This document shows, piece after piece, positions 6,101 through 56,384 of a DNA stretch of 64,000 nucleotides; the first letter of the stretch is position 1, and the number at the start of each line of letters is the position of its first letter. The translations under genes and the position numbers were made by a program. The notes beneath the pieces are model-generated. The model was given only the letters and a program-made list of their open reading frames with translations. It did not search any database and was not told where the DNA came from. Source of the stretch: Tubulanus polymorphus (Eukaryota; Nemertea; Palaeonemertea; Tubulaniformes; Tubulanidae); contig NC_134031.1 in the NCBI RefSeq assembly GCF_964204645.1, forward strand, positions 20,271,307-20,335,306. The letters are read 5' to 3'.

Positions 6101-9100
6101 AAGAAAATGTTGAAATAAATCAGTAATCAACAGTAAGACCCTCAGTAACATCTTTTATATTTTTGTATGGATCAACCAAATCAAATCAGTATTTCTCGTT
6201 GAAAAATAGTAACAAATACTGAAAACCAGGAATAGTTGGTAGCTCTGGAATCAGTAAAATCATGGACTTTTAGAGTCCTTGGTCAAATAAATATCTAAAC
6301 GCAGCCTTTGCAAACTCATTACGGGACTATCGCGAATAGTCTTAAAGGTTGTTTACGGAGTAACCATGACGATAATGAGTCGCGGGACTGCTGGAGTCTT
6401 GAAATTGAGTCAATAATGCAGTATTACACCAGCAAACGTAAAATCAACTTTCCGTGTAAGCACCCCATCAATCAACCATATTTAATCAGCTCACTAGCTG
6501 CAACTACTACCTATCATTGTAATTCACCGATGGATATATAGATATGCTCTACTTGTCGATCGGATTCATTTCATTCAAAACCGCCAACAATTTTGTGCAA
6601 ACTACTAACAAAAGATTGCTTGAATTTTGCACTTTTGAATCTGAATTCGGAATAAATGCGAAAGCGAAAAAAGAAGAAGCGATTATCGCGATGAATAGAG
6701 ATCAATTAGATATAACAATCAGTGTCTCTGAAGTATATAGAGAAGTGTCAGCATAATGAGATAATTTACAGTTATAATAAGTGAAAAAGCATCAGGTTTA
6801 CTTCCATGCAATATGCACGCTATGACTGGAAAGGAACTTATTCAAAAACATGATGAAATCAATATATAGATAGAGCTTTTATTTCCAATTAGAAACTGAT
6901 ATCATTTATTCCGCTGATCCACTGACAATATATATCTGTTCTTTGATTTCTGACATCCTGCTTCATTCCCGGCAGGTGTGGTGGGTTTGACATTAGACAC
7001 CAAATCATATCAAAATCAATCTATCAATCAAACTAATACCCCTTCACTAACTGAAGTCAGTCTGATTACTCCAAGCACTAATATAGCAGAATTTCAATGA
7101 AAAACAAAAACTCATATAAACAGTTAATTCAACAGCTGTTGAATACAAAGAATGCCAATCATTATCAAAAATTAAATCTTTTCTTGAGTCAAATTTATGA
7201 GAAAAATTATGGTTGTTGGATTCAATAAATCAGCTAATTTAATTCAGATCATTGTAACCATTTGACAAATGATTACTCCAACACTCATGAATAACTGTTT
7301 TGTAAATACAATCCAGATTAAACTGACCACGTCTACTACTGAACCAATAGAATTATAGTGAGCAGACCTCAAGATAAACTCCACCAAAGTTTTCATACAA
7401 TTCAAAACTTTCCATTGAATTTGATTAGCATTGTCGTCAATTCATTGATGGAATAATAAATATATCAACAATCCTACCTGATAGCTATCTCGTGTCAGGC
7501 ACGTGTGCGTCAACCGAAGCAAATAACCGTTCAAAGGATATCCGTTCACGCGAGGCCAGGAACAACTGTAAACCATACGTTCTGGTGCCCTCAATCGATA
7601 CATCTCCCCTCCTCCCCCTCTCTCCCCTCCTCCCCCTCTAACAACCCTTCTCCACTCAACAATCTTTTTTTCTAATGGTAAAAATATTGATTGTGAATAC
7701 TTGATTAACTAACAATACGATCGTAACGAAAAAAGGTTTTCCTATTCTCATCATATCCTCTCAATGGCTATCCAGCATTAACCCTCCGTTTGAAAAAATT
7801 TTCACTTTCAAATAATTATGTCACCAGTCCATCAAGTTTTGTTGATTATTGGTTTTTAGTGGAAAACCGTCAATTACAAAGTATCTGACTTGAAAAGAAT
7901 GTAAGGCTAGGAGTAAAAGTCTAGAGTGCCTGTTACTGGTTACAAAAGGGTTAAACCAAAAGTAATAACAACGGAACAAATCTGAAATATTGCTGCAGCA
8001 TTTTCTATAGCATCTGGTCGATTGTCGATTGTTGGATTGTTTTCTAAGCTTTAAGTTTTTTTTAAACATAGATCCATTGAACCTGTCATGATTCCACTCA
8101 AGAGTTCGTATGCAGTGTTACGTTAAATACGCGTACATGAATAATTGACAATTCTCAATACACTGTATCTGCCGTATGATTAGTCACATAATTACTTATC
8201 ACATTATTACCCGGTGAAAAAATATATACATGAAAAATAATGCAAAACATCGGGAAAAACCACAAACATATAGAAGTACATAGGGTAAGAAGTGATCTCC
8301 ACAACAGGTTTTAGGGGAGCATACACCCCTTTCATCTTTACATTATGCCCTATGAAAATCAGCCACCCTTATAAAAATTCTGCTTCCCCGACCAAAGTGG
8401 TTGTCAACATTCTGCTAATTGATAATTGCTTTGAAATATATTGAGCTAATTTGTCAAATAGAAGATTACACCAAGATTAAGCTTTTCTGTAAGATTTTCT
8501 GAATTTTTGGGGGATCGTGGACTTGCTACTTCGGCAGCCACGATGTCACAATGAGAGCAGCCCTTTAAAAATTCAAAGATTCCAGATTTCTAAGAGGCTG
8601 TCTGTATATAGGCCTTCTTTGATGACAAATAATATATATCAGATACATGTATATCAGATATATCACAGTATATCAGATATATCACAGTATATCAGATATA
8701 TCACAGTATATCAGATATATCACAGTATATCAGATATATCATGTCTCTCTTTACCTTTCAGTAGTCTTCATCTGCTCTTTCAAGTTTTTAATGTCCGTTT
8801 CTAGTTTGTGACATTGTTCTCGCCAATCGTCTGTAAATTCCTCAATGTTTTCAGTGTCGCAGGAAGAATCTGAAAATTCGAAAAAAAACCTAATATAGCA
8901 AATTACAAAATAAGAATTCTAAAGTCTAGATTATTATTATCGATGAGAACCCATGATCATCGGGAGGGATACATCTGGGTATCAAAAATTTACAAACGTA
9001 ATACCCGGTAATTTGAATTGCGCGACCCCTCAAGTCAACTTCAACAGTTCTGGTATGCACAAAATAATTCTAAACTTTAAATTTTACCTTTAAAAAGCTC

Positions 9101-12100
9101 GGACAAGATGGAAGCCGATTTATTCGCTTCTTGTAGTTTCGATTTGATCTCGCTCATATCGAGTTCATCGGGTTCGTTGCGACGCGGAGCTGTATCGATA
9201 TACGCTCGTAGACTCTCTAATAGTCGACACACGTGAACGCACGCGTCGCCACCGGCCGCGATTCGACTTTTCAACAACGCGTTCTCTTCCGCTAAACGAT
9301 CGCTGATCGATGATGATCTATCACGCTGCTGGACGAACGTCGTATTTTCGGCCGCGATGCTCTGCGTTTCTTCGTGTAACTGATCCTTCAAGCAGTCGAC
9401 TTGATTTCGCAATCGACTGAACGCCTCGCGATTCGACGCCGTGAATCTATCGATTCCCGGAGTCTTCGGTTCGTCGATCGCGTTATCTCGCGTGCCGGGC
9501 GGCGTACACGGAACATTACCCGACGACGGGATCTTTTCTGATTGCCCGCGTAGAGATTTCAAAAGCGCGTTCAAACGCTGAACTTCGGCTTCCAGTTCGT
9601 GTACACGTGTACTTGCTTTCAGTTCGGCGGAGCGCGGTGGTGGAGGTCTTCCGCTCGTCCTGTAATCCGTAAAAACGTCATTCGCACAATTCTCGTCATC
9701 GCACGAGAATTTCTCCATCGTCTTCGTCGTTTCAGGAGCAGACGGCAACAGATTCGTTTCGCTCATGCTGCGAATCGGTAATTTCGACGTCAGAATTCCG
9801 TGCTTCGTCAAAACGCTGCGATAATGTTTGATCTTTTGACCTTGAAGATGGACGGTCGACTCGGTGGAACGAAGTTGTCGCTCGAGTTGTTCGCGTTGAC
9901 TTTTCAACGCCTCGATCTCTCCGCGCATACCACGAGTTTCGCCGGGCGCCGATTCGTCTTCCTGAGACGCGGCGCGTGGATGACTCATTTTCGAAGTGGT
10001 GTTTGTCCGTTTTGAAGCTGCAGCTTTCGAGGCTGTTTCGACATCGCTATTATCGATCACCTTGTCGACGCCCTTTCGCAAAACCGGGATGAAACTTCTA
10101 TATCCCGCGCCCGGAATCGGTGGTTTTCCCGTCGTTTCGCAACTTTCCAACTCTTTAATCCGCGATTGCAACTGGATGAGTTCGTTTTGAAGATCTTTCA
10201 AACTGGGCGCGTCGCGGGCGTCGGCGTTAGAATCGACGCCGAGTTTCGCGCGTAGAAGTTCGTTCTCAGCGGACGTGCGTTCGAGATTTCGCTGGCACTG
10301 TTCGTATTGGCCGTGCAATGTTGACAGTAAGTCATCTGCTTGTCCCGAACACATGTTACACATCGCCGTCGTGCTGCTGCTACCACTGCTGCCCCCTTCT
10401 GGCTGTTGTTGCAACCGATGTTGCAGACGGTTGTTCTCGTCGCTCATCTTCATTATTTCGTGTTGTAAACTCTGAACGCGCGAGTTCAATGAGGAAATTT
10501 CCTAAAATGGGAGGTTTTATTCTATCATAACTTTTGGCTCCCTTTGAGTCTATGTCTAACTTTCATTCAAGTGTCAAATTTTTCATTGTGTTACAACTTG
10601 ACTGAATATTAAACCTCGATAACATAAATTTTTCAGTCTTCAAAACCAAATTGATAGGTTCTAGTCGTTGGCGACTTATCCAAATAAGGGCTTACACTTT
10701 GATATAATAAATACACAAAACTCACTGGACTCAAAAATAGTGACAACTTTAGTAATGTGAATAATCCAATCACTAGGTCCAAAAGCGGTCATAAATGTTA
10801 AAACTATTCTTTAGATTGGCTATAGAACTAAGATGGTCTTAAATCTAAGCTATGACTGCGCCACGAGAAAAAATCCTTAAATCAAGATAATATAAATCAC
10901 ATATATGTATCTGTACATAAGAATTATTCCTTCTTTACTATTCCTTAATTCAAATTCTTTTACCTTTTGAGCCGAAGCGTCTTGATCGATGGCAAACAGA
11001 GCAGCTTCCAATTCTTGCTGTAGTTCGTCGTTCAACCGGCGAGAATCTTGTAAATCTCGTCTCAACGAATCCGCGTGAATCGACGACGATGACGCCCCGA
11101 AACCGTTATCGGCATCGAGACAATTTTCACCGGGTATAACATCTCTTCCGAATTGCGTCTACAAAAATGGAAAATATCGAAATGCTGATTTATTCAATTC
11201 TGAAAATCTCACCACATTCCCTTATGAGTGCATCCAGTTCAGTGAGTCCAAAAACTCAAGTCATAAAAATATGAAAGATACATTTTGGATTATTTTACTG
11301 GGGAATTCCTTGCAAGTGCTTTCCAGTTCGCGCCAAGACTGAACTGAATTCATAATCTTGGCTAGGCAGGAGTATCACGGTAAATCAATAAGCAATCAAA
11401 TTTGTGATACTAAGCGACAAAACAGTCGCTACAAAGTTGCATTCAATCTCGCCTATTCAGTCTTAATGAATCGGGGATTAACAAATCAATATCAATTACG
11501 AGGTATTTGTATCGAAGTTAATTCAACCCTGACGTTGCTAGATTTAATAGAGAATTAATTGGCTTAAGTGTAAAGTCAGGTAATCAGTCGTTAACATTCG
11601 CAACCGCGCAACAAAACCGCGTAGAAATAATGACGTGAAAAGTTTCAGATGAATTCCTCCTTTTCAATGACACAATTATATACCCGGGTAAGCTTAAATA
11701 TATATAGGGAGGTTGCTTTTTTCCTGACTATTCCCTGACATGCACAATGTTTTCTCTGACTTGATCTTCTTAGAATCCAATCAACTAACGCAGTCTAATA
11801 CAACAGGGCTGAATTTGTCTAAGTACATCGTAAGTCCTCTTATATTCATTCGAAATTGAAAATTCATTGAAAAAAAGAATATCGAATTCATTTCTGATAA
11901 TACGCCAATGAAATAACGATGACGAAGAAAACCACGTGGCCTTCGGACTACGGCGTGTGAGACAATTTTCACCCTTAATTCAAAATTTCACAAAATAAAC
12001 GATTCAACTTACGAAAGCGGCATCGAGTCGTTCGCGCAACGCCAGATTCTCTTCTTCCAGCTTCTTCATGACGACTTTCGCGTGCGCGAGTTCGCGTCGT

Positions 12101-29950: not shown

Positions 29951-31787
29951 ATGGCTTCATCAATCGTTGACGAAGCAGCAAAAAATGGGAACTCGAATCT
30001 ATTGGAAACAATCATTGTCATATCTGCCGGTTTGATCTCTTCGTTCATCGTTGGAGGTAATTATGTCGATGGTATTCTGGTAGCGGAATGGGTGGACTAT
30101 TTTCATCAGGGAAGTGGTGTTACCGCTTGGCTCGGTACAGCTATTATTGGAATCAGCAGTTGTGGAGGTAAGTTCCTATGACAAATATATTTGAAAACTA
30201 GAACTCGTATCTGTGAGATCACTGTGGAGATAATTACCTTGATGTTTCTTTTCACATGAAGCACCTATCGCCACTTTATTGATAAAAAGATTTGGTTTTC
30301 GCAAAGTATTTTTCTTCGCTGCAACGATCAACGCATCCGCTTTAGCTCTGACGTCATTTGTATACAATATATACCTGGCTATAGCACTGCGAGTTTTAGC
30401 AGGTAAACTTCAATTACGACAGGTTTCAATTGGACGTATTCCGGAATAAGATCATCAATTCCGTATTTCAAACTCTCGTACCAGCCATGCTATTCCGGAG
30501 TAGGGAGAGCGTATTCTGAGGAGTATCCCAGAATCGGTAGAAACCAATCGAAACCTGCTTTTAGTCTATCACCTGCCTACCTCGCCTTGCCTACAGATAC
30601 CAGTTATACCGGTATTCAGTACCTCACTTCAACTGACAGCTCTTCGGGATTTATATTCAAATCAATTCATAAATATCGATATCTTGTCTTATTTCAGGGT
30701 GTAGCGTGACTTTCCACCTTTGTAGTATAGGACCATATTTGGCTAATAGATTTCCAAATCAAGTTGCTATTGTACAAGGTTTAAGGACAGCTAGCGGTTC
30801 GAGCGGTATTCTCGCTTTTCCGTTTATCATAAACTACTGTTTGAAACAGTACGGTTGGCGCGGATGCTGTTTGATTATCGGTGGTATCGCGTCTCAACAG
30901 TGCGCTCTAGGACTTCTATTTCGTCACTGGTCAAATAAACCCCTTCCAAAACACGAGGAAAACCAAGAAACGCTACTGGAGCAGAACAATGGTGATAAAA
31001 CCAGACGATTTCGCGATCTTCATCAATTAGATCTGTTTAAACAGAAAATGTTCGTAGTATTTATGATACATATTTTTATCATAGACGCAGCATCGTCTGT
31101 TATATATGTACACATCGTATCTGGAACTAGAGTTTTATTAGAAATTTCTCCTGAACAAGCGAGATTTACTTTATCAGCGATAGGTTTATCAATACTCTTT
31201 GCGTGCATCGTCGTTTCATTGATAACCAAGCATCCCATGATAGATACATTCACGTTATACATGATAATGAACACATTACTAGCGATTCAAGTTTGTGTTA
31301 TACCGTTTATGAAGGGTTATGTAGCAGCCCTGACAGTCAGCGCTTCTATAGGCATTCTAATGTCCGCCCATGCTGCCTTACATTTGTTGATGCTTTTGGA
31401 ACTATTTGGAAGCGAATATCTGTATATGTCTTATTCGTATGGTTTTTTCAGTGGAGGATTTGGATATTTGCTCGGTGCTCCTGTTGCAGGTAGGTCTTAT
31501 CTACGAGCAATAATCTCAAGTTGCGATGATGCTCCTAGAGGTTTCATGAATGGAAACTTGTCTAATTAACGCTTATTTAACTAGTTGTCTATTTATTTTC
31601 AGGTTGGATTTACGACGCAACGGGAAACTACGCGATCTCGTTCTATTTCTGCGCTGGTTTATTGATTCTATGTGTTTTGATACTGATTCCAGAATGGATA
31701 AAACATATCAAAAAACCGAAACAAACTGATGAAAATACAATAGAGCCTGTAACTCCAACGCGTAGCGAGTCTTCAAAATCTATCTAG
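29951..31787 (+). CDS. monocarboxylate transporter-like (SLC16/MCT) major facilitator
   Basis: This is a membrane carrier of the major facilitator superfamily, probably for monocarboxylates or related small molecules; the substrate cannot be read from sequence. Exons are 29951-30167, 30262-30402, 30698-31489 and 31603-31787. All junctions are phase 1 with clean GT-AG sites, giving 444 residues, normal for an MCT. Family features are VTAWLGTAIIG in the first loop/TM2, IKRFGFRKVFF (the RFG-R motif after TM2), LCSIGPYLANRF, AFPFIINYC in TM5, a short cytosolic middle loop (HEENQETLLEQNNGDK) and GWIYDATGNYAISFYF, the typical last-helix signature. The TM1 PDGGWGW-type motif is not conserved (GGNYVDG instead), so this is a divergent member. 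Start ATG follows a TTGAG context; AATAAA lies 70 bp past the stop. Confidence 0.88.
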
Positions 31788-33210: not shown

Positions 33211-36200
33211 ATGAATCATCCACGGCGAGCGCAAACCGCTATCAACCGCAATTCTAGAGCACGACCTCTGAAAGAACATGAAGTAAGTTATGGAAAGTCC
33301 GTTTTTCAAAAACAATTCAAAAGCACAGTTGGATACAGCTGCTAAGTTAATGGTTAAGTTTAACTGAAGAGTAAAGTGTCCAATTTCAGTCTTAATGATG
33401 ATAATTGATTTGAGAATTTGCACAAAGGCCTATGACAATGCTAGAAGTGCTTCTTAAATTACTTTCAGCCATCACCGTTCCTTTTCATCGGAAACATGAA
33501 CGCAGACGATGACTATGACAAATTCAAAAGGAAGTCATCAGGTGCGTACAGAAATGATACTAATTATGTAATTATTGTTAATTACATAATTAATTAATTA
33601 ATTATAAACATTAATATTACATGTAATCTAAACATCCAGTAGGCCTAATAATTTATGTGCAAAATGTGTCTTATAATGTTTACATTCAATCGGTAAAGTT
33701 TGACTTGATGTATTTTGCAGTGCCCTTGAAAAATAAGAAGAATTCTACAACGAAATTCAAGTCGCGGTCAGCCCCGCCATCGAGGATAACTGCGCCATTA
33801 AACAGGTAGGCCTACGAATAGTTGTTATTTGTAGATTCCATTTTGAAAGATTATTCGTGACGACAAAATGTGTCTTCTTTTACTCAGAAAATTTGGTTCT
33901 TGATAGACTCCTATTAATCTATGTTTATGTATTGTCAAACTTGCTAAATTTGTCAAAGTTAGACAATCATTATGTTAACGACTTATCAAAATAACAAAAA
34001 CAAATAGGGATTAAGTATTGTGACCCGATGAATGGAAAAGTTTAGGTTGTTTACTCTTACAGATCCATAGAACATTGATTCTTTTATATTTGCAGTGAAT
34101 CCGCTGAGGAGAATCCTACGCAGCGATTCTTGTACAACAATGTCGGTCCTTCATCTTCAGTAACGATAACCAAAACTCCGATTCCTGCATCACCTCAACG
34201 GAACGTGAACTACCGAGTCAAAACTCCCTTCAAACAATCAATTTACAAACCAAAATCTCAGGTAACTGGCTCAGCTAGATATTTCAAAAACAATTTTTTT
34301 TTTTAAATTCTCAGTACGCCTGATGATGGCTAATAGTCTTTAGCCGAAACGTTGCGCAAATATATATATATACTCTTCTATTCAAGTTTCTCTTTTATGC
34401 TGAATTTATTGTGGGATTTCTCTCGTGTACATAGTTAACTCGGCCTTTAACTCTTTGCTCGCCAGACACATACTTGTACAGATACTTAATCTTTACGGTC
34501 TTCACTTTTTGGCATGATTTGTTCTCGAACCAATTTTCTCCATACAACAGAAACCTATACCATTTCCTGGAGAAGAACTCCGTGAACGAACGTTGATTGC
34601 CATCGAATTGGCGCAAGAAATTCTAAAAAGACAACCGACCCCGCCACCGAAAGAAAAACCGAGGAAAGGAAAGTTATGGAAAGGAAGGTTTGTACAATTG
34701 ATTTTGTGTCTCAATTGAGTTTGAGGTTGGAGACTTTTGTACCGACTAATAATCACACAACTAGTGTAGAGGAGAGCTATGGAGGAGCCCCACCTGGTCT
34801 CAAATAATCAGTAAATGTGGAGACATGAATCTAGTCACTCATAACCCTCGTCATTCAGTATTCTATAATTCTGTAATGTCATTCTCTCTATAAGGCTAAA
34901 AGAATGATACCTTGTTTCTCATAATTGGCCAGGTCACTTTGGTGAACTGTGATGAAATTAGTAATCAGCTCATTTCTATTTCTGCCGGGTCTGTTATTGT
35001 TATTTGATCGTGATTTTCAAAAACAGAAAGGTGCAGGTTATATAGATGGCCGGCCGAGTCAACGTCTTTTAGGAAGCAGAAATGAGAATCAAGGTATCAA
35101 TTGCTTTTTAACCCTAAATCCTGTTGTTTCTGAATTTACCCGATGAAGCTACTATGCAGTAGAAGTGAACTAAGTTTAGTTTACCTTCAAACAAATAATG
35201 TGGCCATTTTATTTTTGCAGATTAAAGCCGATGTACCCGGTGAATATTACTGGTCCATCAATTTACGATTGTCTCGGAGTACAACCAGGTATAGATAATA
35301 AAATTTATCAAAATTGTATTATAATATGTATTGCTTGGGGGTTTTTGGCTTGAGGATTAAAGTTTTCTGCCTGTAGCCTGCATGCATGTAAACTATCCTC
35401 AGAACAAGGATACTGATTTGTACAACACTGATAGAATTGAGAAAAATGATTGAAATATCCTATTATTCTCATTCCATTTTAGACAGACGTAAAGTGATGC
35501 GTCCGAGCAACACGCTGATTCGCCGTCGCCAGATCATGCAACAATATCCGGAGATCATCGAACAGTACACTTTACATCGTTCGGAAACTAGGCAATCGCT
35601 GGTCGAATCAATCCATAACACGTCACGAGCGTCGAGTGTTAATAACGACGACATCGTCGACTATGATCTGATGTAAGTGCTCGGTTAACCCATCTGGAAT
35701 CTTGTCAGACGCGGATCTCGCAATGCCATGGCAGCAATTGTTTACCGATCAATTTACGAGATATTTTAACACATTTGCTGCCATGGTTGCCATTCTTCGC
35801 GAGTGTCTATTACTACTATGAGGTTTCTCGTGGTTGGCAACAGAGCTATTTCATACCATAGTCAGCCATTGTTGGGCTTGTTCTTGCAACACATTAAAGA
35901 TAGATAGTCCGCCAATAAGGAACTCTGTCATCTCTAACCTACGACTGAAACTAGATCCAAATTTCCTGCTGATTTTACTTTTGTTTACATGTTTTGTTAC
36001 AGCGATGATGAACTGAATGATAATGAAGATGATGAGTTACTGTTTAACGAAGACGACAGAAATAGCGGTAGCGCTAAATTTTCCGGCAGTCCGTTGAGCC
36101 GCCCGGTTTCATCGGATCCACGTAAATCATCGGCAAAATCGGTCAGATTCGCGAACGATCCTTCGTCGGTCGTTGACGATCCGATCGGAGAGCGAGTCAT

Positions 36201-39200
36201 GGAAACCGTGATTCACGGCGTGAAGGTTCGAATATCGACGACCCCGAGTTCAAGGTCGCATTCTGCTTTGTCGTCGTCACGCGGCGTTCCGAAAACGCCG
36301 TCGCCGATTAGCGACGTCGATGCGCGACGACATCGTTTCGAACCGATATTCAAAACGGAACCACCGAACCGAGATAATCGCTTCGAGATATCGGCTTCTA
36401 CTTTGTCCGGGGGCGGGGACGATGAACGAGAGGAAAAACTTTGCGAAGATGATCGGAAAAACGTTGAGAAAAACGGTTTAGACGAAGCCGGTGATAGAAA
36501 TCCGACTTCGACGAAAGCAGGAACTGACGATTCCAACTCGTCTTCTTCTGACTCCGATCTGGAGGATGAAGAACGCCGGATGCGTAGACATCCTCCGACC
36601 TCGTGTAAATACGAGGCCCGTTTGACGTCTTTATACGACAGAAATGATGATGAAGATGACGGCGATGATGGCGATTTACTTTCGCGAACTAACGGCAGTC
36701 GTCGAGAAAAATCTCCGTCGTTAAACGCAGAGCAGACGCAAGCGGCTAGCGACGGTCAAACTCATAAGACGGCGAACGCTGATGAAAAACCGGATGATTC
36801 CGAAGTCACCATCAATGAACGAGCAACATCGTCGGAAAGTTCTCCAGGTGCTGGTGGTCCGAGTGGGAAATCTCACGAAGATTTCGAAAGAGCACTGTCG
36901 ACGCGGCGCGAATCAGTCGTCAGTCGCCACGAACGCGATGATTTGTTCGATGAATTATTCATGGAGATAACTAATAGTACAACGATAGCTAATAAGAATA
37001 GCGATCTATCCGATCGTAAAAGCGTCAGGCAAAAAGCGAAACGTAGAGCGCAGTCTGCTAAAAAACATTCGAAAAATGAAAGAGTAAATCCCCAGAAAAA
37101 TATTCGTCGCCCGCGAAGCGCTAACTCGTATATTTCACCCTATTCGCAGGTGGCTATTAAGAGGAGTGCTTCTACTACGAGTTCGTCGAATAAAACTGGC
37201 TTCATTAATGATTCTAATTCGAATAGAAATGAAAAATCGAAAGAAGCATCTGCTTCGAGAAAGGAACTATCTGCGTCAGAATCGGTTGAGAAATCTGACG
37301 AAGCGGGATTTTCTGAATGTTCCAAATACAAAGAAATGAATACACAGCCGTCCGGCGAATCAGAAATTCAAATTGCTGAGGATGTAACGTCTACTTCATT
37401 GGAAAACCTGTCCGAAACGATCTCATCGATTTCCAAGAGTATACGCGAACTTTACTGCGATATTTGTGGTCTAAACAGCAAAACCTGCGTCTGCCCAAAC
37501 GCTCATTTTTCATCGGCGAAGATCAATTCAGAAGAAAACAAGTTGCTTACTTTTGACGAACTCGACAAAGTGCTTTCTTCAATTCAGTCCGAGTTACAGC
37601 TCGAGAATGAAAATGCAAAGTCCACGCAGCAGACGGATTTTACGGCAGAAAATAAACCGACTATCAATGACCTTCAAAGTTATGTCGAAAAACTCGAAAG
37701 CCTAGATCTCTGCTGTGGTCAAATTAGCTCGGCCCTCACCGATATCGATGAGTTCAAAAAGATGTGCAAGAAATTTGCAATTGAGGGGCATCGATTGAGA
37801 CCGGGGTCGGCTACGTCTAAAGGAAAGTTGTCGCGTCCATCGTCGGCGGTGAATCGCCCGAAACCAGCATCGGGAAACGATCACAACTCGATCGTTAAAA
37901 GTAATCGCTTGTCAGCGTCTGCTCGAATCAGACCGGGGTCGGGTAAAGCTAGATCTACGCGTTGCCGCAATGATCTGGATTATTTGGAGTTGACGGATTA
38001 CAATCTCGGAGTGGAAGTAGATAATGAAAAGGATGATGATGATGGTGAAACAATTGAAGCAGTGGTAGAATTTAAAGCGAATGCTCGTGAAAGTGAAAAT
38101 CTGGTGGGTGAAGAAATTTCCAGGGTAAACTTACCTACTTTCTTATTTCTCCCACGAGTATTTGTATTTCATATAGGCCTAGCTAAACTCACTTTAAGAC
38201 CAACATCATTAATGCAATAATGTACAGTAAACCCTAGTCCGAGTTCAGGGTAAAAAATACAAGTCTGGAGTTGGTCGTATCTGAGTTAAGCAAGGTTTAC
38301 TGTATATACGTTTTTGTATATAAGTTGACCATAGATAATCTCTATTGTTGAGATCACATATTTAGGATGTGTCCAATTTTAAAGATTCACAATATTTAGC
38401 AGATAAAAAATGTATTTATCTATTTCAGGATATGACCCCTGAACCAAGGTGAGTCTTTATTTTTAGTTTAGATTTTTCAAAAATTCCCCCTAACTAGACA
38501 GATGAGGTGGAATTCAAATTGCGATATTCAAGCAGTTTTCCTTCAAATAATTTGTTGTTGCATTTACAGGGAATTGGAAATTCTCGCTACACAGAAACCG
38601 ATGTCAAAGACAAAGTAAGTTCTTCATGATGCTTCATTCATAACTTCAGATTTCTATGCATTGAAAGGACCAACTGTACTGATATAAATTAGACTCCTCC
38701 TTACTCTGACTCAGATTCAAATTGGGCTAAAGTCAGTTAATTTTACAAAGATTTTCCCTCGATTCTCATCTCAGTAAAATGATTATAGTCTCAATGAGTG
38801 AGGCCTAGAGTCTAGAAATTAACATGTTCTTTTTCATCATTTCAGGGAAGATATCTGCACTCGTTACAAACCAAAGCAGCCGGTTGCGCAATGTTTCCCA
38901 GTTTGTTTTCACATCAATGCGAAACCACCGGCGGGCAAACTTTACTATTTCGCATATGGGTTGACTATGAACTGTAGCAGGTATGTAACAAGCATGTGTA
39001 AATTCGTGTCAAATTTTTTTGAGAAATTCTTTCATTAAAGTTATCTTTGAATTATGTTCTTAGAATGCAGTCATATTTACAAAGAGAAGTGTCTGAGCGA
39101 TTTTGGGCCATCTTATTCGGGTTTTCATTGGTATTCAACAAAAAAGGTCAGCGAATAACTAAGACGATTTCCACTCAGATCAAAGCAAAAATATCGAATT

Positions 39201-40064
39201 TTATGATTTCTGATTATCAATCTTTGCATTTCAGGATTAGATTTGGAAGCTGGATCATTTCCGAATATCGAGTTCAACCCATACAGTTCTGTGGAGGGCT
39301 GTGTTTATGCGATTACGCCAAAAGAATTAGAAGTACTCGATCACTGTATGGGCTGCCCTAAGGTACATTTTTGCTATCCAAAGATTCTGGGAGACCAATT
39401 TCAAAGGATATTTGTAGAATTATTTTTCAACAAGCGACTTTTGCACATACTTGCTGCCATAGTTTCCACTGCCAGCAGTTGATAGAACCAGGGAGGTTTG
39501 AAAAAATCATGTACTTCTCTTTATAGTATTGTGTACGAGCGGCATTTCCAGTTTGGTTACAGAATGCACAAGTTCAGACTGGGGGTGAAGATCAGTTGGG
39601 CGTGGCGCAATACTGCGTACCGGCAGTAACTTACATCGCGCAAGATGATTGGACAGACAATGGTGAGTCCATGAAATTCATTTAAGAGGAAAATTGAAGA
39701 AAAAGGGCGGCCACTTTCTCCCTGACATGTCAGTTGTTTCCATGACATGATCTACTACTAAGAATCCAATCAATCAACACAGTCAAATATGTAAGACATA
39801 GATGGAAAATGTTTGTATAATTGTTACACACAATTTAAATATCTCAAAAAATTTCCCTGAAATTTTTCAAGAAAAGAAAATTCCCAGACTTTCCGCTAAG
39901 TGGCACTTCCATGAGAGATTTCATCATCACATTTAAGTGATATCGATCTGCGTTTTTCAGAAAAGTCCAGCGTCCCCACGGAGGCGACGTTCGAAGAATG
40001 CTGGAAAAGCGCCGATGTTCTGAGTCCACAATATAAACAGTATCTTCTACGCATAATAGGATAA
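33211..40064 (+). CDS. large disordered protein with C-terminal gamma-glutamylcyclotransferase-fold domain
   Basis: Fifteen exons, all GT-AG and phase-matched: 33211-33282, 33469-33541, 33721-33805, 34096-34261, 34551-34687, 35221-35288, 35483-35672, 36003-38124, 38429-38448, 38570-38614, 38846-38980, 39064-39146, 39235-39362, 39527-39662 and 39961-40064. The product has 1,187 residues. Residues 1-260 are basic and Pro/Ser/Arg-rich with short ordered islands (RTLIAIELAQEIL, YPVNITGPSIYDCLG, RRRQIMQQYPEIIEQYTLHR). The 2.1-kb exon encodes ~700 acidic, Ser-rich residues, then a helix (SLENLSETISSISKSIRELY) and a Cys cluster at 749-765. Residues ~1024-1187 are a GGCT/AIG2-like fold beginning YYFAYG. 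I do not recognise the N-terminal 1,000 residues. The domain probably binds rather than cleaves gamma-glutamyl substrates, because LDxxEG has become LDHCMG. Exon 9 is a 20-nt microexon. Confidence 0.85.
34318..34370 (+). ncRNA. hammerhead-ribozyme-like core in intron 4 of the GGCT-fold gene
   Basis: CTGATGA (34320-34326) is followed by a perfect 6-bp stem GGCTAA/TTAGCC (34328-34333 with 34340-34345) and then GAAAC (34346-34350). This is the conserved hammerhead arrangement CUGANGA, stem II, GAAA. Downstream TTGCGCAA can form a short stem III. Such motifs occur in Penelope-like elements and retrozymes. A TATATA run follows. Stem I and the cleavage site were not resolved by eye. Confidence 0.5.
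38938..40064 (+). other. GGCT-fold domain, probable pseudoenzyme
   Basis: The domain starts with LYYFAYGLTMNCSRMQSYL, matching the YFAYGSN start of gamma-glutamylcyclotransferases. It continues through FGFSLVFNKKG (a basic beta strand as in GGCT FKLDFG) and VEGCVYAITPKELEVLDHCM (the GVVWKMNKSNLNSLDEQE region). The family's catalytic Glu in LDxxEG is Met here (residue 1104), and YGSN reads YGLTMN. The end has the usual PQYKQYLLRI helix (human PPSPQYKKII). Fold call is firm; loss of activity is inferred. Confidence 0.8.
39703..39890. mobile_element. dispersed CCCTGAC-type repeat in the last intron of the GGCT-fold gene
   Basis: GGCGGCCACTTTCTCCCTGACA, AAGAATCCAATCAATCAACAC and AAATTTCCCTGAAATTTTTC also occur, diverged, at 1838-2045 and 11700-11805. 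Short pieces with GTGGCCACC are seen near 42400, 43525 and 57830. Confidence 0.45.
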
Positions 40065-41496: not shown

Positions 41497-44400
41497 TCAT
41501 CGACAATCTTCGTCGAATATTTTGATTTTATAATGTTTTAAGTCTTGTTCGCTTATCGGCGCCGGCGCATCGCTCATCGGGTCTCTCAGCTCCGATTTAG
41601 GGAAAGCGATCACGTCTCGGATGCTCGGCGCTCCGACCATGATGGACAACAGACGATCAAGACCTAGAATCAAGATACACAAATATTTAATTCACTAACT
41701 CGATGCATTATAGACGAATAACGTCTGTAAGTTTCTAATACACCAACAAACAACAAAGGTAACATCCCAGTCGACTAGTTTTATAGATTAGCTTGAGTTA
41801 ACCTGAGGGTCCAGTCAATCATAAAAAGGATAAACTTCAAAATCGATAAAGATAAAATGAAATAATGAAGAAATTCAATTGCAGCTCTTAAATCGAAATC
41901 AGTCTATAAAACAGCCTACGGGGCCCATAATCTTGCATTATTGGATATCCGATGTCTTTGATTGCTCTTGTTAAGGAAGGGGAAGGGGTTAGTGCAATGT
42001 GGACATTCTATGGAGATGGGGAGGGGGTAAAAATTTAGCAATTTTGTATGGACGTCTTCAATGGACAGTTCCTATATAACCCTTAAGTAAACGGCAGGTG
42101 GTTTCAGCGAGTCGATTCTGGAAGAAGTGGTTTTATCAAATATTCATAAGCAGTTCATACACACCGAGCCTGAGCTGTTTCTCTCATATCATACAAACGG
42201 ATTACATACAATAAACACTGAATGACATACCTAAAGCGATTCCACCGTGTGGCGGACATCCATATTTGAATGCTTTCAAAAGATGCTCCAACTGACTAGA
42301 ATTTTCCTGTAAAAAGGATAGAAGATTGATGTGTAACTAATTATCACAGCACAGACTCCTATGTTTTCCCTGATTTGTCTGATTATCTAAGTTTTCTAGG
42401 CCGGTGGCCACCCTCTAACCCTATCTATGAAGTATATTCCACCCAACTTGGGTGATGCTCTCAAATTGTGCTTGTGTGATTTAGTCAAAAAGATTCGACT
42501 TGATTGGAGTCTGCTGTATTGCAACTTGGAGCGATAAGACTGATTACTCCAAGATTGCAACAACGAGCCATTGCAAGCGATAAAAATAAACCTTTTTTGA
42601 GAAGACCAGGCACCCCACTGAAAAATCGCTAATTTTTCTCATGATTCTTAAGGTCCAAAAAGTTCCAACTAGGGAAGCGTTTAGGCTAGATACATAGATA
42701 ACCCAAATATCAAGATATCAAGGCATGTTGAAAACTTCCCAATGAACTACTGACCGAAAAATAAATGCCGTAGAAAATAAAAGAAACAGAATTTTACTTT
42801 TAAACAATGGTGAGGAACTATGAGTTATTTGAAGTATCTTACCTGAAGTATATTTTCTAAAATGTGTTTCTGCAGATTTGAATCATGAATTCTTATCGAA
42901 CCTCCACCGATTTCAGCTCCGTTTAAAACCAGGTCGTAATGTAAACTTCGCACCTGTTAATAACGCATTGAAAATAGAAAACAATCGTTATTATCATAAT
43001 CATTAAGGAAACCTGTGTTTAAAGTGCAGGCTCGAGTGATGCTTAGCAGGGTTGAGGGTGTATAGAAATGAACAAAGAAAGCAAATAAGATCCCACTCCA
43101 AGGTCGTCACTTTTAAACTGATTTTGATCTTGAGTAAAGAAAAATAGAAAAAAATTTATAGTCTATAGTAGTAAAAGATATATTTAATAATAATCATAAT
43201 TAGTGTTTTATATAGCGCTTAATCCAGCTCATAAAAAAAGAGCGCTTCACATAAAAGCCTCATTAAAGAGGAAATGTTTAAGTTTAAGTATTAGATTAAG
43301 ATTTGTATTTTGAACGCATGTGAATTTCCATGTTGAAACATTCGCCGTATAATATGTCTGCAATTTTATTCTGGAGACTTAGGTTGACACATTTAGGTGA
43401 ATTTTGTGCAAAGACTGATAATCGCAGAATAGAATCAATGGATCAAATGATCACACGTAATTCAACATGTGTTTTCTAGATTTTTCTGATTCCCCTAGTT
43501 TTCCAGGTTTTCAAGGTCAGTGGCCACCGTGAGGGACTTAACATACAGCAATAATATCGAGCATGTTTGATTCATACAGATTGATTCTTGGCATACTGTG
43601 CAAAGTTTGGTGAAAATTGATTTGCCGATGAAATCAACCGAACCACTAAACCACTGGCTTTAGAACTTACTGATGCAACACTTGATATCATCAGCTATAT
43701 CTATTTTACCTTTTCTGGATTTTTTTGAAGTAGATGTTCATCCTCTGGATGTGGAGCGGTGAAAGGATGATGAGTTGACTCTAAACCATCTGTAATTATA
43801 AATGAGTTATACAGATGTGCACGAGTGACTTGTTAGGGATGATAACTTCTAAAACCACGAATAAGAGGCTGCTCATTATGCAGCCCAAACCAGACCCCCG
43901 GATGAAAATGTTTACCTAATCACCACTTGAACAATTTTTTTGATCATCTACACTTCATTTGTGTTTAGGACACCTTCACCCCAAACATTATTATATTGTA
44001 AATGAACTAAAAACACCAGAAATTAGACATTTCTTGACCACACAATCAAAAAGTGTCTGTCAATATTTCACACCTAACAATAACAAATGTATAAAAGGGC
44101 TAGTTTCAGATCGATCCCTGCATTAGTCCATAGCAGACCTGACTAACTGTTAAAAGAGTAATATCAATAGTAGAAAGGTCTGCTATCATCTTTGAATCAT
44201 AGTTTACGTTCAGAAAAATCCATCGTAAAATGTGTTTTAATCAAATTAAAATGCGATAATTCCAGCGTTACGATCACATTAGTGAATGACGGCACAAAAT
44301 AATTTCATTATTTCTCTTTCTAGACAAACTGCTAAAGTAAAGACTCCTGCGTGTATGCTGCAGGGATGATCTTCAAATCAGATACTCTCATACCTTCGAG

Positions 44401-46339: not shown

Positions 46340-48817
46340 CTGAAAACAAAAGAATTCGACGAAATGATTAAGATATAAACCCATTTTAAGAAGATGACGA
46401 TATTGCCGGGCGTCGTAGTTAAAAAGCAATGCCAAATCGATTCGATTATATCACAAATATCACCACAAGGCAAGTTGCTAATAATGTATAGCACTGAACT
46501 GAAGAAAAGATGAGATTAGTTAAATTCAATTGTTTTAACTCCGCTCATATCTGCTGGCAGCAACATTTCAAACGCAATAATTGTATCTACCGGCAACAAA
46601 ATTTGAACGTTTTCATTCCTCGAACTGCGACATTAATTTGGCAGTTTTATTTTTCCCTCAAAAAAAAAAAGGAAGAGCGACCAGAGTAACTGTGCCGCCA
46701 CCAGGATTCGAACCGGTGATCCCTGGATTGATGAGACCAGCGACCCGATGCTTACACCACTCGGCCGATACTCATCTCTACTCGAACTCATCAGATTTTT
46801 TTCCAAACAAATAAATTGAAAATATCAAGCATCAATAATCGGACGGAGTTACACGATGAGAATATCTCCGAATCGAAAGACTGAACTCGCTGCTTCGTCG
46901 CGCGACAACACTTCATCCAGTTAATGCCGAATGTGCGCTTAATCGGCTTGCGCGCAGGAGAGAGGGGGAAAACAAAAAAACAGTTTTCATTCCCGAAAGG
47001 AATTTCGCGTCGCCGAGTTCTTAGCACAATGACAGGAAAGATTAGATCGACGTTCTGGTGAAATATCGACAATCAATAGCCGCGCGCCGTCGACTAGTTT
47101 ACAGGAGCAACTGCGATCTTAGGACATGACGGAAAACTGACCATAACTTAACTGCGGAAAATCATAGCAAAATGTAAAGACTTTCGGTAGAGAGTCCAAT
47201 ACTGATCAATAAATCCACAACAGAATTGCAACTTCCTCGGTATAACAAAATTCATCCTTGAAAATACTATATTACAACATGATCTTACAGTAAAATGCTT
47301 TACAGTCACACCTATTATATGCGTTTATCTTTCATTCATATTCTCACATGTTGTTTATTTCTGCTGCTTATAAAGTTCATTCCATACATTATTCTACCTG
47401 TTGAGGCTGAAGTGACTCGGCGAAATCAATCGTACTTTCAAAGATGAATTTTGTTACAAGGTACATTTTGAGAAAATATTTGCAATCAAAGTTACATACT
47501 TTGGAATTCTGATAGCTTCCTGGGCTTTATGGAATTCAATGCAGATTTAGTTTCATGATCTTTTCAAAAGGTAACATTTGCCTTAACCGCGCATAATATC
47601 AAATACTGCACAAGTCTATATAACTGAATGATATCTGACGATGAAACCACATCAGTTGGATTCATTCCGGGAAATCCATAATCATAATCTGGATGTTAGA
47701 TCCACAGATTAAAGATAAATCCAGAGTCTGATTAAAGTTCTTTGTTGTTAAAAAGAAAGAAGATCTATAACCACCAACATCTGAAACATTGTGGTTGGAT
47801 TGATGATACCTGCAAAATGCTTCCATCATTTTGACTGAGTTGGCCCCCCTCATATCGGCTGCACAATTGAGGTTTCTATTTTTATGCATTTCTTACTAGT
47901 CATTACACCTCTGAAAACAGTTTCCTTACTTTAAGCACAAATCCCAGAATTCTGCAAAAATCATCAAATCAACAAAAAATGTTCTTAAGTCCTTCGTGTT
48001 TTCATCAAAATTTTTCAATGATAAAAAATGTCTTTTTGACAAACCTGTCTTGATTAAGTAATGTTTATGTTCATTTTCAATCCTTTGATTTGCAAAGAAG
48101 TTTTTTCAATTCTCCCATCATTTGAATCCAATTCATCACAATTTTCACTTCTTTTTATAATTTTTTTGCAATCCTTGCAAGGTTTTAATCACTCGAATAA
48201 TAAAAAAACTTTATTTCTATTTTTCCCTGTTCCCTTCCAGTTTAAAATGCCCAGCATAACAAAAAGAAATCTTTCAATTTTCTATTCGCCCTCCAACATT
48301 TTGTTGAAAAAATCTGTACTCCAGAAAAAGGCCAAGTTCAGCCAATAGCTTAAACTGTGCGAGGTTATTCAGTCATAGTTTTCCTTGTCAATAATATGAC
48401 ACGGACTGGTGTAAACTCAACAGGCTCAACTCAACTTTAAAATCATATTTCTCTTTTGCAACATGTATATTCATTTGTTTATTTTTAAATTCAATGTTTG
48501 CGGGTGCATTAGGAGATAATTTGTACAAATTGACGAAACAAGCGGAACCTCTGCATATCAAAGATTCAACACAAATTGACAAAGAGAAAAATAGCATTTT
48601 AAATCGACTTTATTAAATTAAATCTCTAAAGATGCGAGCGAGGTGAACTATTCGTAAACCCAAAATTCTAAATGTATATATCGCCAACAGGGATTATCAG
48701 TTAATCTTTACAGCTCTTTGATTTGTTGATATGTTTTGAAATAAATACACGAACATCTCATTTGTTTTTCATTGTGAATTCAGACGCTGAAGAAAATCTC
48801 CTCACGGCTGCTGCGCG
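46340..48817. other. non-coding interval upstream of the visible DARS2 exons
   Basis: Contains a minus-strand SINE (46679-46790) and a CpG-rich stretch at about 46820-47100 that could be a promoter or unrecognised exon. The remainder is AT-rich with only spurious open frames. The final ~100 bp (48720-48817) are the leader of the GPCR gene. Confidence 0.5.
46679..46790 (-). mobile_element. tRNA-derived SINE, 5' head
   Basis: On the minus strand GGCCGAGTGGTGTAAGC (A box) is followed by CAATCCAGGG and GGTTCGAATCCTGG (B box), then GTGGCGGCACAG and CTCTGGTCGC. The CAATCCAGGG-B box-CTGGTGGCG part equals the SINE at 52421. The flanks cannot form a tRNA acceptor stem, so this is a SINE and not a tRNA gene. 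Confidence 0.75.
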
Positions 48818-49738
48818 ATGAATTTTCTTCAAAATTCGTCGTCTTCGTATGTTACTACAAACTTTTACTTTAAACTTGTAGTAAGCCCAACAGAGTTGCG
48901 TGGAACATATTATTTGTGGTTTCATCTTCCGTTCTTGAGTCTCATTTTTATTTTCGGATTCATCGGTAATTTACTGATTGTAATCATTATGTTACAACGT
49001 AAACTATGGCGACATTCATTTAGCCGGATGTTCATTCAACTAGCGATCAGTGATTCTATCGTTCTCTGCATATATTTCTGCGTATTTATGAATGTATTGT
49101 CTGATGTGTTATATCAGTCTGTACTGATCAAACCATCGACACGATTTCAATGTATGTTCTACGAGTATTTCGCAATATCTTCTTTTACAATCAGCCCATG
49201 GATGTTGGTTCTAATAGCTACCGAGCGAATGTGCGTGGTTTGTTTTCCGTTTAGGGGTCCTCGTTTCTGGACAGTGAATACGGCTTCTAGATTGTGTTTA
49301 TCTGTTGTGTGTCTAGTGGCCCTGATTTACAGTTATCAGTTTGTGACTGTTGATTTCACCGTCGACGTTGGTTGTACGAGCAGCCAACGGAGCCCAATGT
49401 TTCGAATAATGCTCTTGTCTTTAGTTCCATTTTGTTTTCTAGTCACACTTTCATCGGTAACATCTGTAACTTTATTCAGAAGTCAGGAAAACAAAACTCA
49501 TGCATCGAAATACTCAAAACAAGTAACCAAGATGGTGTTTTTACTGTGCATGTTCTTCATGGTCACAACATTTCCCACTACTATTCTTGCCCCTTTTGTC
49601 TGGAACAATAACCAATTAAGATACATCTTCGGGGCTGTTTCAGACGTCCTTATGCTGAATTATTCATTAAATCTCTACATATATCTGATGTCGGGAAAAA
49701 ATTTCAGAAACGCATTACGCAATTTACTTTGTAAATAA
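48818..49738 (+). CDS. orphan rhodopsin-class GPCR, intronless
   Basis: A 306-residue seven-helix receptor at the cell surface; the ligand is unknown. Class A landmarks are a glycosylatable N-terminus (NSSSS), GFIGN in TM1 (N51), LAISD in TM2 (D79), C112 at the top of TM3 and C186 in ECL2 for the disulphide. TM3 ends ERM instead of DRY, followed by CVVCFPF. TM6 has TTFP with no CWxP Trp, and TM7 has LNLYIY in place of NPxxY, followed by a GKNFRNAL helix 8. ER-M with NLxxY resembles lineage-expanded peptide-type receptors of invertebrates. The single exon suggests an origin by retrotransposition or an old intronless subfamily. The 3' end has a decayed copy at 4909-4982. Confidence 0.88.
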   Translation: MNFLQNSSSSYVTTNFYFKLVVSPTELRGTYYLWFHLPFLSLIFIFGFIGNLLIVIIMLQRKLWRHSFSRMFIQLAISDSIVLCIYFCVFMNVLSDVLYQSVLIKPSTRFQCMFYEYFAISSFTISPWMLVLIATERMCVVCFPFRGPRFWTVNTASRLCLSVVCLVALIYSYQFVTVDFTVDVGCTSSQRSPMFRIMLLSLVPFCFLVTLSSVTSVTLFRSQENKTHASKYSKQVTKMVFLLCMFFMVTTFPTTILAPFVWNNNQLRYIFGAVSDVLMLNYSLNLYIYLMSGKNFRNALRNLLCK

Positions 49739-54351: not shown

Positions 54352-55296
54352 TTATTTGCCAGAATTTCTACAGCGGATTTTCATACAGAAATATTCACGA
54401 ATTTCTCGTCCCAGTAAAAGGTATACGTAAAAATTTACCACGTAGTTACCAAGTAAAAACTGAACAAATATGTCATGTAGAAAATCTCTCTGTTCCGTTG
54501 AGATTGGTAACAATGAAGTAATAGCAGATGGAAGTGTAAATATAGCAAATGCGAGTGAAACTGTTACAAGCATTATTGTTGTACATTTTGATTTTGTTGT
54601 TTTCTGATCGGAAGAAACCATTTTTGAACCTCTGAATAACTGAACTATTATAATAGAATTTGATGTTATGATGAAAGATAAAGGTAAAATAAGAATGTGA
54701 ATGACAATTATGGAGAAAAGTGTTATTTGGTCTGATAATTTGTAGTAACATCCGAAAAACTGGTCAGAAACATACATCGACAAAATAGGTGTGAAACATA
54801 TCAGCAGTACATTTACTGCAGTAATTATCAGTATAATGAATCTAGCGAATGTCGGTGTACATATCAAACGAGATGTGAACGGAAAGAGAACAACTGCCAC
54901 TCGTTCAAGAGATATCGCTACTATCAACCACAAACTATTACAGGCTGCAAGGTCCATTATAAATTCATAGATTTGACAACTGATCAGTGAATTCATCATG
55001 AATATAGGACCATCTTTAACGTGCGAGAGAATAAACTGTAAAATAGGCATCAGTGCAACATTTATACAGTGTATGGAATCACTGATTGACAAAACAACAA
55101 GATAGTTAGCGTAAGATAAACTGCGGAATCTACGACTTATCATTATGAGGAAAGTAGCTGAATTTCCGAAGGCTCCAAACAGGAATGGCAGAATGACCAG
55201 TGTCACAGTACGGTAGATTCCAGACTTGTTCACCACAGACATTAGAACGATGTAACTGTTATAAGATCGACCGATCTGAATCTGAGTTGAATTCAT
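54352..55296 (-). CDS. second orphan rhodopsin-class GPCR, intronless
   Basis: A 314-residue seven-helix receptor, start ATG at 55294-55296. Landmarks: N-terminal NST and NKS sites, FGAFGN in TM1 (N45), LSISD in TM2 (D73), C107 and C183 for the disulphide, TM3 end LERVAVVLFPF (ERV instead of DRY), TLP in TM6, NFYVY (288-292) in place of NPxxY, and a GREIREYF helix 8. It shares ISDSI and ER..VV.FPF with the receptor at 48818 on the opposite strand, so both probably belong to one divergent subfamily. Its leader overlaps a degenerate CTGACTGTCTGAGTGTG-type repeat (55325-55475). Confidence 0.88.
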   Translation of the reverse strand: MNSTQIQIGRSYNSYIVLMSVVNKSGIYRTVTLVILPFLFGAFGNSATFLIMISRRFRSLSYANYLVVLSISDSIHCINVALMPILQFILSHVKDGPIFMMNSLISCQIYEFIMDLAACNSLWLIVAISLERVAVVLFPFTSRLICTPTFARFIILIITAVNVLLICFTPILSMYVSDQFFGCYYKLSDQITLFSIIVIHILILPLSFIITSNSIIIVQLFRGSKMVSSDQKTTKSKCTTIMLVTVSLAFAIFTLPSAITSLLPISTEQRDFLHDIFVQFLLGNYVVNFYVYLLLGREIREYFCMKIRCRNSGK

Positions 55297-55324
55297 GATT
55301 AATGAGGATCAAATGAGTATGTTG

Positions 55325-55475: not shown

Positions 55476-55761
55476 ATGTCTTCCCACGTATTGGAAAATT
55501 AATCCAATTTCAACATAAAGAAATCATTATAAAGTCTACAGTGTATTTCTAAGATTTATCATTGACAGCGAATAGAAAATGAATTCTCAGAAATAGACTC
55601 AGATTTCGTTAAAGTTTATTATCACGTAAAATATAAATATAACTTGATCACATATAGATATACATTATACAAAATATCTAACAGTAAAATATCTGAACAC
55701 CTCGGAAAATGTCTATTAGTTCTATACAGAGAAAACACAGGTGACAATAGCATCAGTTCAT

Positions 55762-56093
55762 GAGAGAAATCCCACAATAACGAAGCCAAGATTGAAAAAT
55801 TCTATATCAGAATGATGTACAGTACAGAATGATGTACAGTACAGAATGATGTACAGTACAGAATGATGTACAGTACAGAATGGTGTACAGTACAGAATGG
55901 TGTACAGTACAGAATGATGTACAGTACAGAATGATGTACAGTACAGAATGGTGAACAGTACACAATGGTGTACAGTACACAATGGTGTACAGTACACAAT
56001 GATGTACAGTACAGAATGATGTACAGTACAGAATGATGTACATTCTGATATAGAATTTTTCAATCTTGGCTTCGTTATTGTGGGATTTCTCTC
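55762..56093. mobile_element. TIR element packed with a 17-bp satellite
   Basis: Perfect 53-bp terminal inverted repeats (55762-55814 and 56041-56093, starting GAGAGAAATCCCACAATAAC) enclose about 13 copies of ATGTACAGTACAGAATG with single-base variants. The outermost TIR bases recur alone at ~34406-34424 (ATTGTGGGATTTCTCTCGT), so a family is present. Long open frames inside are artefacts of the repeat. Confidence 0.8.
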
Positions 56094-56384
56094 GTAAACA
56101 TCATACACGGATATTGTGTATCTTCTCCTCTAAGCATCAGTTCATTATTCGACCACATTGCGGGAGAAAGAGTGAAATGTGAAAAAAAAGGAGTACGTAG
56201 ACTAAAAGATAGAGAGTGAGGTTCGGGAGGCGGTGTCTTATCGTCGGACTAAATCAGTGTGATAAAGTGCAAATAAGATTGTTTTTATAGATCAGTCAAG
56301 CGTGTTCTAACATGTTTCGCAGATGCCGCCGTTAATCCTTTGTTTCGTACAAATGTCACGGATTCTGCCGGCGACGCTTTTTAG

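Follow-up and report, generated by a model that had tools for sequence, protein, structure and literature searches.

The stretch of Tubulanus polymorphus DNA analysed here (contig NC_134031.1, positions 20,271,307 to 20,335,306; 64,000 nucleotides, hereafter the window) contains a forward-strand gene that we reconstruct as encoding one protein of 1,187 residues, in which a long, largely disordered partner would be joined to a C-terminal domain of the gamma-glutamylcyclotransferase (GGCT) family with an altered catalytic pocket. Judging from the sequence, we think it probable that this domain is a pseudoenzyme that forms the binding head on a disordered scaffold. An earlier note on this DNA had placed a pseudo-GGCT fused to about 1,000 disordered residues at 38938-40064; the domain does lie inside these coordinates, whereas the gene model starts earlier, at 33211.

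Rebuilt from splice sites, the gene comprises 15 exons (33211-40064, + strand) that sum to 3,564 nucleotides with a single terminal stop, and 14 of 14 introns are GT-AG. All splice-site scores reported below come from a simple matrix that was not trained on the T. polymorphus genome, by which exons 2 and 3 have mediocre acceptors (13% and 11% of AG sites in the window are as good, respectively). The exons are as follows.

33211..33282, + strand: exon 1, start codon, residues 1-24; GT donor, open frame, in-frame stops upstream
33469..33541, + strand: exon 2, residues 25-49; GT-AG, phase match
33721..33805, + strand: exon 3, residues 49-77; GT-AG, phase match
34096..34261, + strand: exon 4, residues 77-132; GT-AG, phase match
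34551..34687, + strand: exon 5, residues 133-178; GT-AG, phase match
35221..35288, + strand: exon 6, residues 178-201; GT-AG, phase match
35483..35672, + strand: exon 7, residues 201-264; GT-AG, phase match
36003..38124, + strand: exon 8, residues 264-971; 2,122 nucleotides open (about 707 codons)
38429..38448, + strand: exon 9, 20-nucleotide microexon that aligns the exon 8 frame with that of the GGCT exons
38570..38614, + strand: exon 10, 45 nucleotides; frame-neutral if skipped
38846..38980, + strand: exon 11, 135 nucleotides; linker and YYFAYGLTM, residues 993-1038
39064..39146, + strand: exon 12, residues 1038-1066
39235..39362, + strand: exon 13, residues 1066-1108; contains LDHCMG
39527..39662, + strand: exon 14, residues 1109-1154
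39961..40064, + strand: exon 15, residues 1154-1187 and stop

Family membership of the C-terminal domain

By sequence comparison, the last approximately 160 residues of the predicted protein are a true GGCT-family domain (the window domain).

38943..40064, + strand: GGCT-family domain, introns within the span; residues 1026-1187, exons 11-15 (Pfam, profile and hhalign)

Pfam applied to the 1,187-residue protein returned GGACT/AIG2-like PF06094 (E 9.3e-07; 29.9 bits against a cut-off of 22.8), which was the sole Pfam match of the domain; ChaC (PF04752) did not match it in a Pfam search with E up to 10, in which most matches above 0.1 were filtered, and NCBIfam gave no match to it. A family profile was built from 85 prokaryotic and phage sequences (proteins of 114-241 residues), comprising five tblastn seeds (P0001-P0005) and the best 80 (L021-L100) of at least 423 prokaryotic loci that encoded a relative among at least 592 pattern matches in prokaryotic genomes. 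This profile matched residues 1026-1184 and scored the full protein at 70.6 bits, compared with 5.3 bits at best for 2,000 shuffles of the domain, in agreement with the earlier reading of YYFAYG, which starts at residue 1026, as a GGCT-fold signature. With the same profile, the domain alone scored 77.7 bits, human GGCT 98.9, the GGCT fragment of the animal's own genome 64.8, its GGACT 34.1 and its ChaC 7.4, and alignment of the domain to the family with hhalign gave a probability of 99.1 (E 7.8e-19). When the PDB was searched with a second profile, of 17 relatives, human GGCT came out at E 1.9e-29 and a chain of the UPF0131 protein ykqA at 7.5e-19, with GGACT and AIG2-like chains ranking far lower. 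Because of these profile scores and the ranking of the PDB matches, the domain appears by sequence to lie closer to the GGCT branch than to the GGACT or ChaC branches, despite its PF06094 match.

Using the domain as query, tblastn returned three plasmid records at weak E values of 0.004 to 0.3, each annotated as gamma-glutamylcyclotransferase, and two phage hypotheticals at E 0.7; PHROGs gave a gamma-glutamyl cyclotransferase family (E 3e-06) and two weak families without known function. The closest five of the 85 relatives were 31-35% identical to the domain. S100A8 chains found by a PDB sequence search with the domain (E 1.3) were taken as chance matches. No close relative of the domain was confirmed among 19 pattern matches in prokaryotic genome contigs or two in viral contigs; these collections are prokaryotic and viral, and the negative is therefore silent on animals. 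As a separate observation, the phage GGCT-like genes L019 and L020 both adjoin an annotated amidoligase gene (two of two).

Searches of the source genome (268 Mb in 77 contigs) found a single locus for GGCT (C3), two GGACT loci in tandem (C6) and three for ChaC (C1). On exon reading the animal's own GGCT keeps the catalytic Glu in LDIQE, as do the one GGACT (LDILED) and the one ChaC (LDKRE) that were read of the two and three, respectively. No first exon (YFAYGSN) was seen for the own GGCT within the 13.8 kb read, and by eye neither of the two own-GGCT introns seen coincides with an intron position in the window gene. The own GGCT is 20-23% identical to the window domain (20% over 114 columns). 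A genome search with the domain recovered its own exons and no close copy, and likewise missed the own GGCT; of two bacterial family members used as queries, one found nothing and the other a single match of E 1.5 on another contig, but neither recovered the window domain or the own GGCT, so that these searches cannot show absence. When 35 relatives and three animal rows were placed in one tree, the own and human GGCT joined at 99/99, and the window domain fell elsewhere, in an unresolved part, on a branch of length 1.81 (2.61 when the tree was repeated). The three appeared together in 0% of 200 bootstrap trees, and the approximately unbiased (AU) test gave p 0.0215 against grouping the window domain with both animal GGCT proteins, a value subject to the same long-branch pull as the tree, in which the place of the domain is unsure. 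The data do indicate that the window domain was not copied recently from the GGCT of the animal itself.

Changes in the catalytic pocket

A crystallographic study of ChaC2 gives the conserved GGCT-fold pocket as Tyr6, Gly7, Ser8, His39, Tyr87, Tyr109, Tyr144 and the catalytic Glu (PMC7022552). These residues were placed on the columns of our alignment by order and conservation, after the alignment had been seen; His39, which had no clear column, was omitted, and seven pocket positions were used. The window domain differs at the following sites.

38961..38966, + strand: Leu1032-Thr1033, replacing Ser-Asn of YGSN (human GGCT S24 and N25)
39348..39350, + strand: Met1104, replacing the catalytic Glu (human GGCT E98), in LDHCMG
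39530..39532, + strand: Cys1110, replacing a pocket Tyr (human GGCT Y105); Tyr1109 adjoins
39987..39989, + strand: Thr1163, replacing a pocket Tyr (human GGCT Y139)

The earlier note had identified Met1104 as standing in for the catalytic Glu, and the rebuilt frame indeed puts it in LDHCMG, in a column that is Glu in 84 of the 85 relatives; the sole relative without it (L087, from an Acidobacteria metagenome-assembled genome) reads LDRSTG, with Thr there. Human GGCT carries E98 in this column, and chain 3cry carries Gln in the PDB profile alignment. The note had also described YGSN as altered, and the domain does read YGLT (1030-1033), matching neither YGSN nor YGS[NL]. Right about the Glu and YGSN, the note understated the extent of change, as two conserved pocket tyrosines are lost too: the Y105 and Y139 columns are each Tyr in 83 of the 85 relatives, and hold Cys and Thr in the window domain. 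The SPQYK near the C-terminus was considered as the PSPQYK of GGCT and dropped, since the family alignment places it on the later LPxxYxxxL helix, and Y139 is therefore lost rather than kept.

The window domain retains 15 of the 17 columns with at least 90% conservation that lie outside the seven pocket positions, versus three of the seven within them (Fisher p 0.038), so that on this alignment the loss is concentrated in the pocket; the two lost among the 17 are the Asn of YGSN (Thr1033) and a Gly that has become Ser1170. In the equivalent position of CHAC1, mutation of the Glu (E115) is reported in a review to inactivate the enzyme (PMC12756093). Pseudoenzymes are recognized by the absence of a conserved catalytic motif at the sequence level (PMC10211241), and such a loss is found in the window domain. 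With the catalytic Glu changed to Met and three more pocket positions (Ser and two Tyr) exchanged, the sequence thus supports the earlier designation of a pseudo-GGCT.

The long partner and its predicted junction with the domain

The claim that the GGCT part is joined to its long partner in one gene agrees with the frame logic of the exon chain. With exon 8 ending in phase 0 and exon 11 requiring phase 2, a direct join is impossible; when exon 8 was joined directly to any of the six acceptors scored in 38600-38950, all six ran into a stop. The route through exons 9 and 10 scored 20.8, compared with 15.7 for the next of nine two-exon routes and 11.7 for the best of seven one-exon routes (exon 9 alone), and the exon 9 donor ranks in the top 0.1% of GT sites in the window. 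The small phase-matched exons described previously were recovered, with 20, 45 and 135 nucleotides following exon 8 in agreeing phases, and the first AATAAA past the stop codon lies at 40204. This splice logic suggests that the disordered part and the GGCT domain share one transcript. Skipping of exon 9 leads to a stop inside exon 11 and removes the GGCT domain, and the 20-nucleotide microexon could thus decide whether the GGCT head is attached.

Most of the partner appears to be disordered. Residues 264-971 are acidic and Ser-rich (18.5% Asp plus Glu, 15.5% Ser), and four of the six stretches tested by charge-hydropathy fell on the disordered side, with 736-870 and the GGCT domain as the two that did not. 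AlphaFold2 run on exon 8 alone gave a mean predicted local distance difference test score (pLDDT) of 43.5, with 529 of 707 residues below 50, which as a single-sequence prediction is weak evidence of disorder; better-scored helices were placed near residues 554-617 and 723-859. The proposed 1,000 or so disordered residues are therefore supported by composition and mean pLDDT for the most part, but not for residues 723-859 or thereabouts, which look helical.

Neither residues 1-264 nor exon 8 had an accepted match in Pfam or the PDB, and a PDB sequence search with exon 8 returned none at E up to 1. Two candidates for the N-terminus, a thioredoxin in the PDB (264 residues as query; E 0.91) and Pfam Lipid_DES (E 0.035 over 14 residues), were taken as chance. 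In the genome, the N-terminal piece found its own exons plus matches of E 4.9 and 9.1 taken as noise, and a 228-residue piece of exon 8 found only itself; in the viral collection, none of 30 pattern matches in viral contigs to the N-terminal piece was confirmed. No signal peptide was evident by eye at the protein start. The motif RPxSA, chosen after the sequence had been seen, occurs three times in the partner against 0.03 expected (0 of 5,000 shuffles), and, at a guess, these motifs would put the scaffold on cytoskeletal or ciliary structures. Exon 8 also contains a CxxC...CxC cluster at residues 748-762 (37453-37497, + strand; YCDICGLNSKTCVCP), which could be a small metal knuckle.

Interpretation, alternatives and known systems

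We hypothesize that one gene yields a 1,187-residue protein in which about 1,000 residues, mostly disordered, carry short motifs and helical stretches, and in which the C-terminal 160 or so residues would form a GGCT-family domain devoid of cyclotransferase chemistry. The protein would be intracellular and the domain folded; this head may bind a partner, perhaps another protein, a peptide or a gamma-glutamyl-like terminus that is held but not turned over, and the disordered chain may recruit further partners, by analogy with pseudoenzyme scaffolds. Because the catalytic residues are gone, the GGCT fold is probably reused here as a binding module, not as an enzyme, and the exchange of pocket residues with other near-invariant positions mostly held fits a domain kept for binding. 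A bolder version, which we put forward tentatively and regard as rather doubtful in its entirety, is that the domain represents a second animal GGCT-domain lineage apart from GGCT, GGACT and ChaC, forming a non-catalytic head with exon 9 as its on/off switch and RPxSA directing the protein to cytoskeletal or ciliary structures. Inclusion of exon 9 would then attach the pseudoenzyme, and skipping it would end the protein within exon 11.

Several observations weigh against a single protein with an inactive head. In-frame Met codons at 973 and 989 (exons 9 or 10) would permit a short pseudo-GGCT to start independently, in which case there would be two genes, the first encoding a disordered protein that ends in or after exon 8; read-through of exon 8 meets a stop at 38218-38220, and the exon 8 donor is only moderate, with 4.6% of GT sites in the window as good. 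Such an arrangement nonetheless seems unlikely to us, given that introns of 304, 121 and 231 nucleotides leave scant intergenic room, that neither AATAAA nor ATTAAA occurs in 38125-38845, and that the best-scoring route by far among those scored passes through the microexon. The exon 12 acceptor is also poor, its score being matched by 30% of the AG sites in the window; the exon 12 residues Leu1055, Leu1060, Phe1062 and Lys1064 agree with family columns at least 90% conserved.

The pocket argument has its own weak points. Three of the seven positions are kept (Tyr1030, Gly1031 and Tyr1144, the last taken as ChaC2 Y109 on the YIA strand), and at a 95% conservation cut the contrast becomes eight of nine versus three of seven (p 0.11 in a small Fisher test), with columns in both comparisons assigned post hoc, the alignment already in view. 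The pattern used to search for relatives demands [SA]N, which biases the Ser and Asn columns (Ser of YGSN in 83 of the 85 relatives, Leu1032 in the window domain) and not the Glu and Tyr columns, and the former are therefore no independent test. Tyr1109, beside Cys1110, could replace Y105 by a one-residue shift, and E1096 or E1098, just upstream of Met1104, might be recruited, since human ChaC2 is reported to be capable of using either of two Glu (PMC7022552). This second Glu of ChaC2, together with the retained fold signature, YG and Tyr1144 and with known pseudoenzymes of migrated residues (PMC10211241), would suit a divergent cyclotransferase that is still active on a new substrate through relocated catalytic residues. 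That four of seven conserved pocket residues have changed together, with Ser and Glu giving way to hydrophobic Leu and Met, makes this improbable in our view. We give very little credence to a decaying duplicate of an enzyme gene, free of selection, to which the lost catalytic residues and the long branch (1.81 and 2.61) might point: 1,187 codons run without a stop or frameshift, of the 17 near-invariant columns that do not belong to the named pocket, 15 are kept, and querying the genome with the domain revealed no close sister.

Other long frames surround the gene. At 682-1803 (- strand), a frame matches Pfam CC_CDK5RAP2 (E 1.4e-08), more long frames continue to 12462 on the same strand, and 9077-10501 has a sub-threshold Cep57_MT_bd match; a CDK5RAP2/centrosomin-like gene seems to be present in the window. 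Upstream of the GGCT-domain gene lies an MFS_1 transporter frame (30673-31569, + strand; E 4.7e-11). Downstream and convergent is an exon piece (42225-42305, - strand) that reads like an aspartyl-type class II aminoacyl-tRNA synthetase. Two long frames at 48791-49738 (+ strand) and 54352-55308 (- strand) match 7tm_1, rhodopsin-type receptors, and a frame at 55758-56129 (- strand) consists of repeated CTVHHSVLY-like units and looks like a short tandem repeat.

Proteins with the GGCT fold are known chiefly for catalysing the breakdown of gamma-glutamyl compounds and glutathione. Both GGCT-like domains fused to other proteins and pseudoenzyme scaffolds are known already, and none of the open-literature matches listed concerned a pseudo-GGCT or a GGCT-disordered fusion in an animal. 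If the binding-head interpretation is true, the GGCT fold would be reusable as a binding module, one more family would join the pseudoenzymes, and the natural pocket substitutions would offer a means of testing what the fold binds without turnover. The case also cautions that a Pfam match alone is poor ground for annotating such proteins as cyclotransferases.

Several known systems can be compared with the predicted protein. The ALPH phosphatase of Moniliophthora roreri offers another eukaryotic case of a GGCT-like domain joined to an unrelated protein; this one is fungal and has a phosphatase as partner, whereas the window partner is predicted to be mostly disordered (PMC8220851). The pseudo-ART domain of TASOR likewise combines a degenerate site with a retained fold in a multidomain protein (PMC10211241); its fold is unrelated and TASOR has been studied by experiment, whereas a role for the window protein is proposed here. 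PF06094 of GGACT/AIG2-like proteins (3JUC) matches the window domain, but the GGACT of the same genome keeps its Glu and, on the GGCT profile, falls well short of the window domain (34.1 versus 77.7 bits). Prokaryotic and phage GGCT-family proteins keep the Glu in 84 of 85 cases where the window domain has Met. Human GGCT (C7orf24; 2PN7, 2RBH, 3CRY) belongs to the same family with the same motif order, and both cover almost the full length of one profile; however, it is a 188-residue chain with YGSN, E98, Y105 and Y139, whereas at these sites the window domain carries Leu-Thr, Met, Cys and Thr, and it would be attached to about 1,000 more residues.

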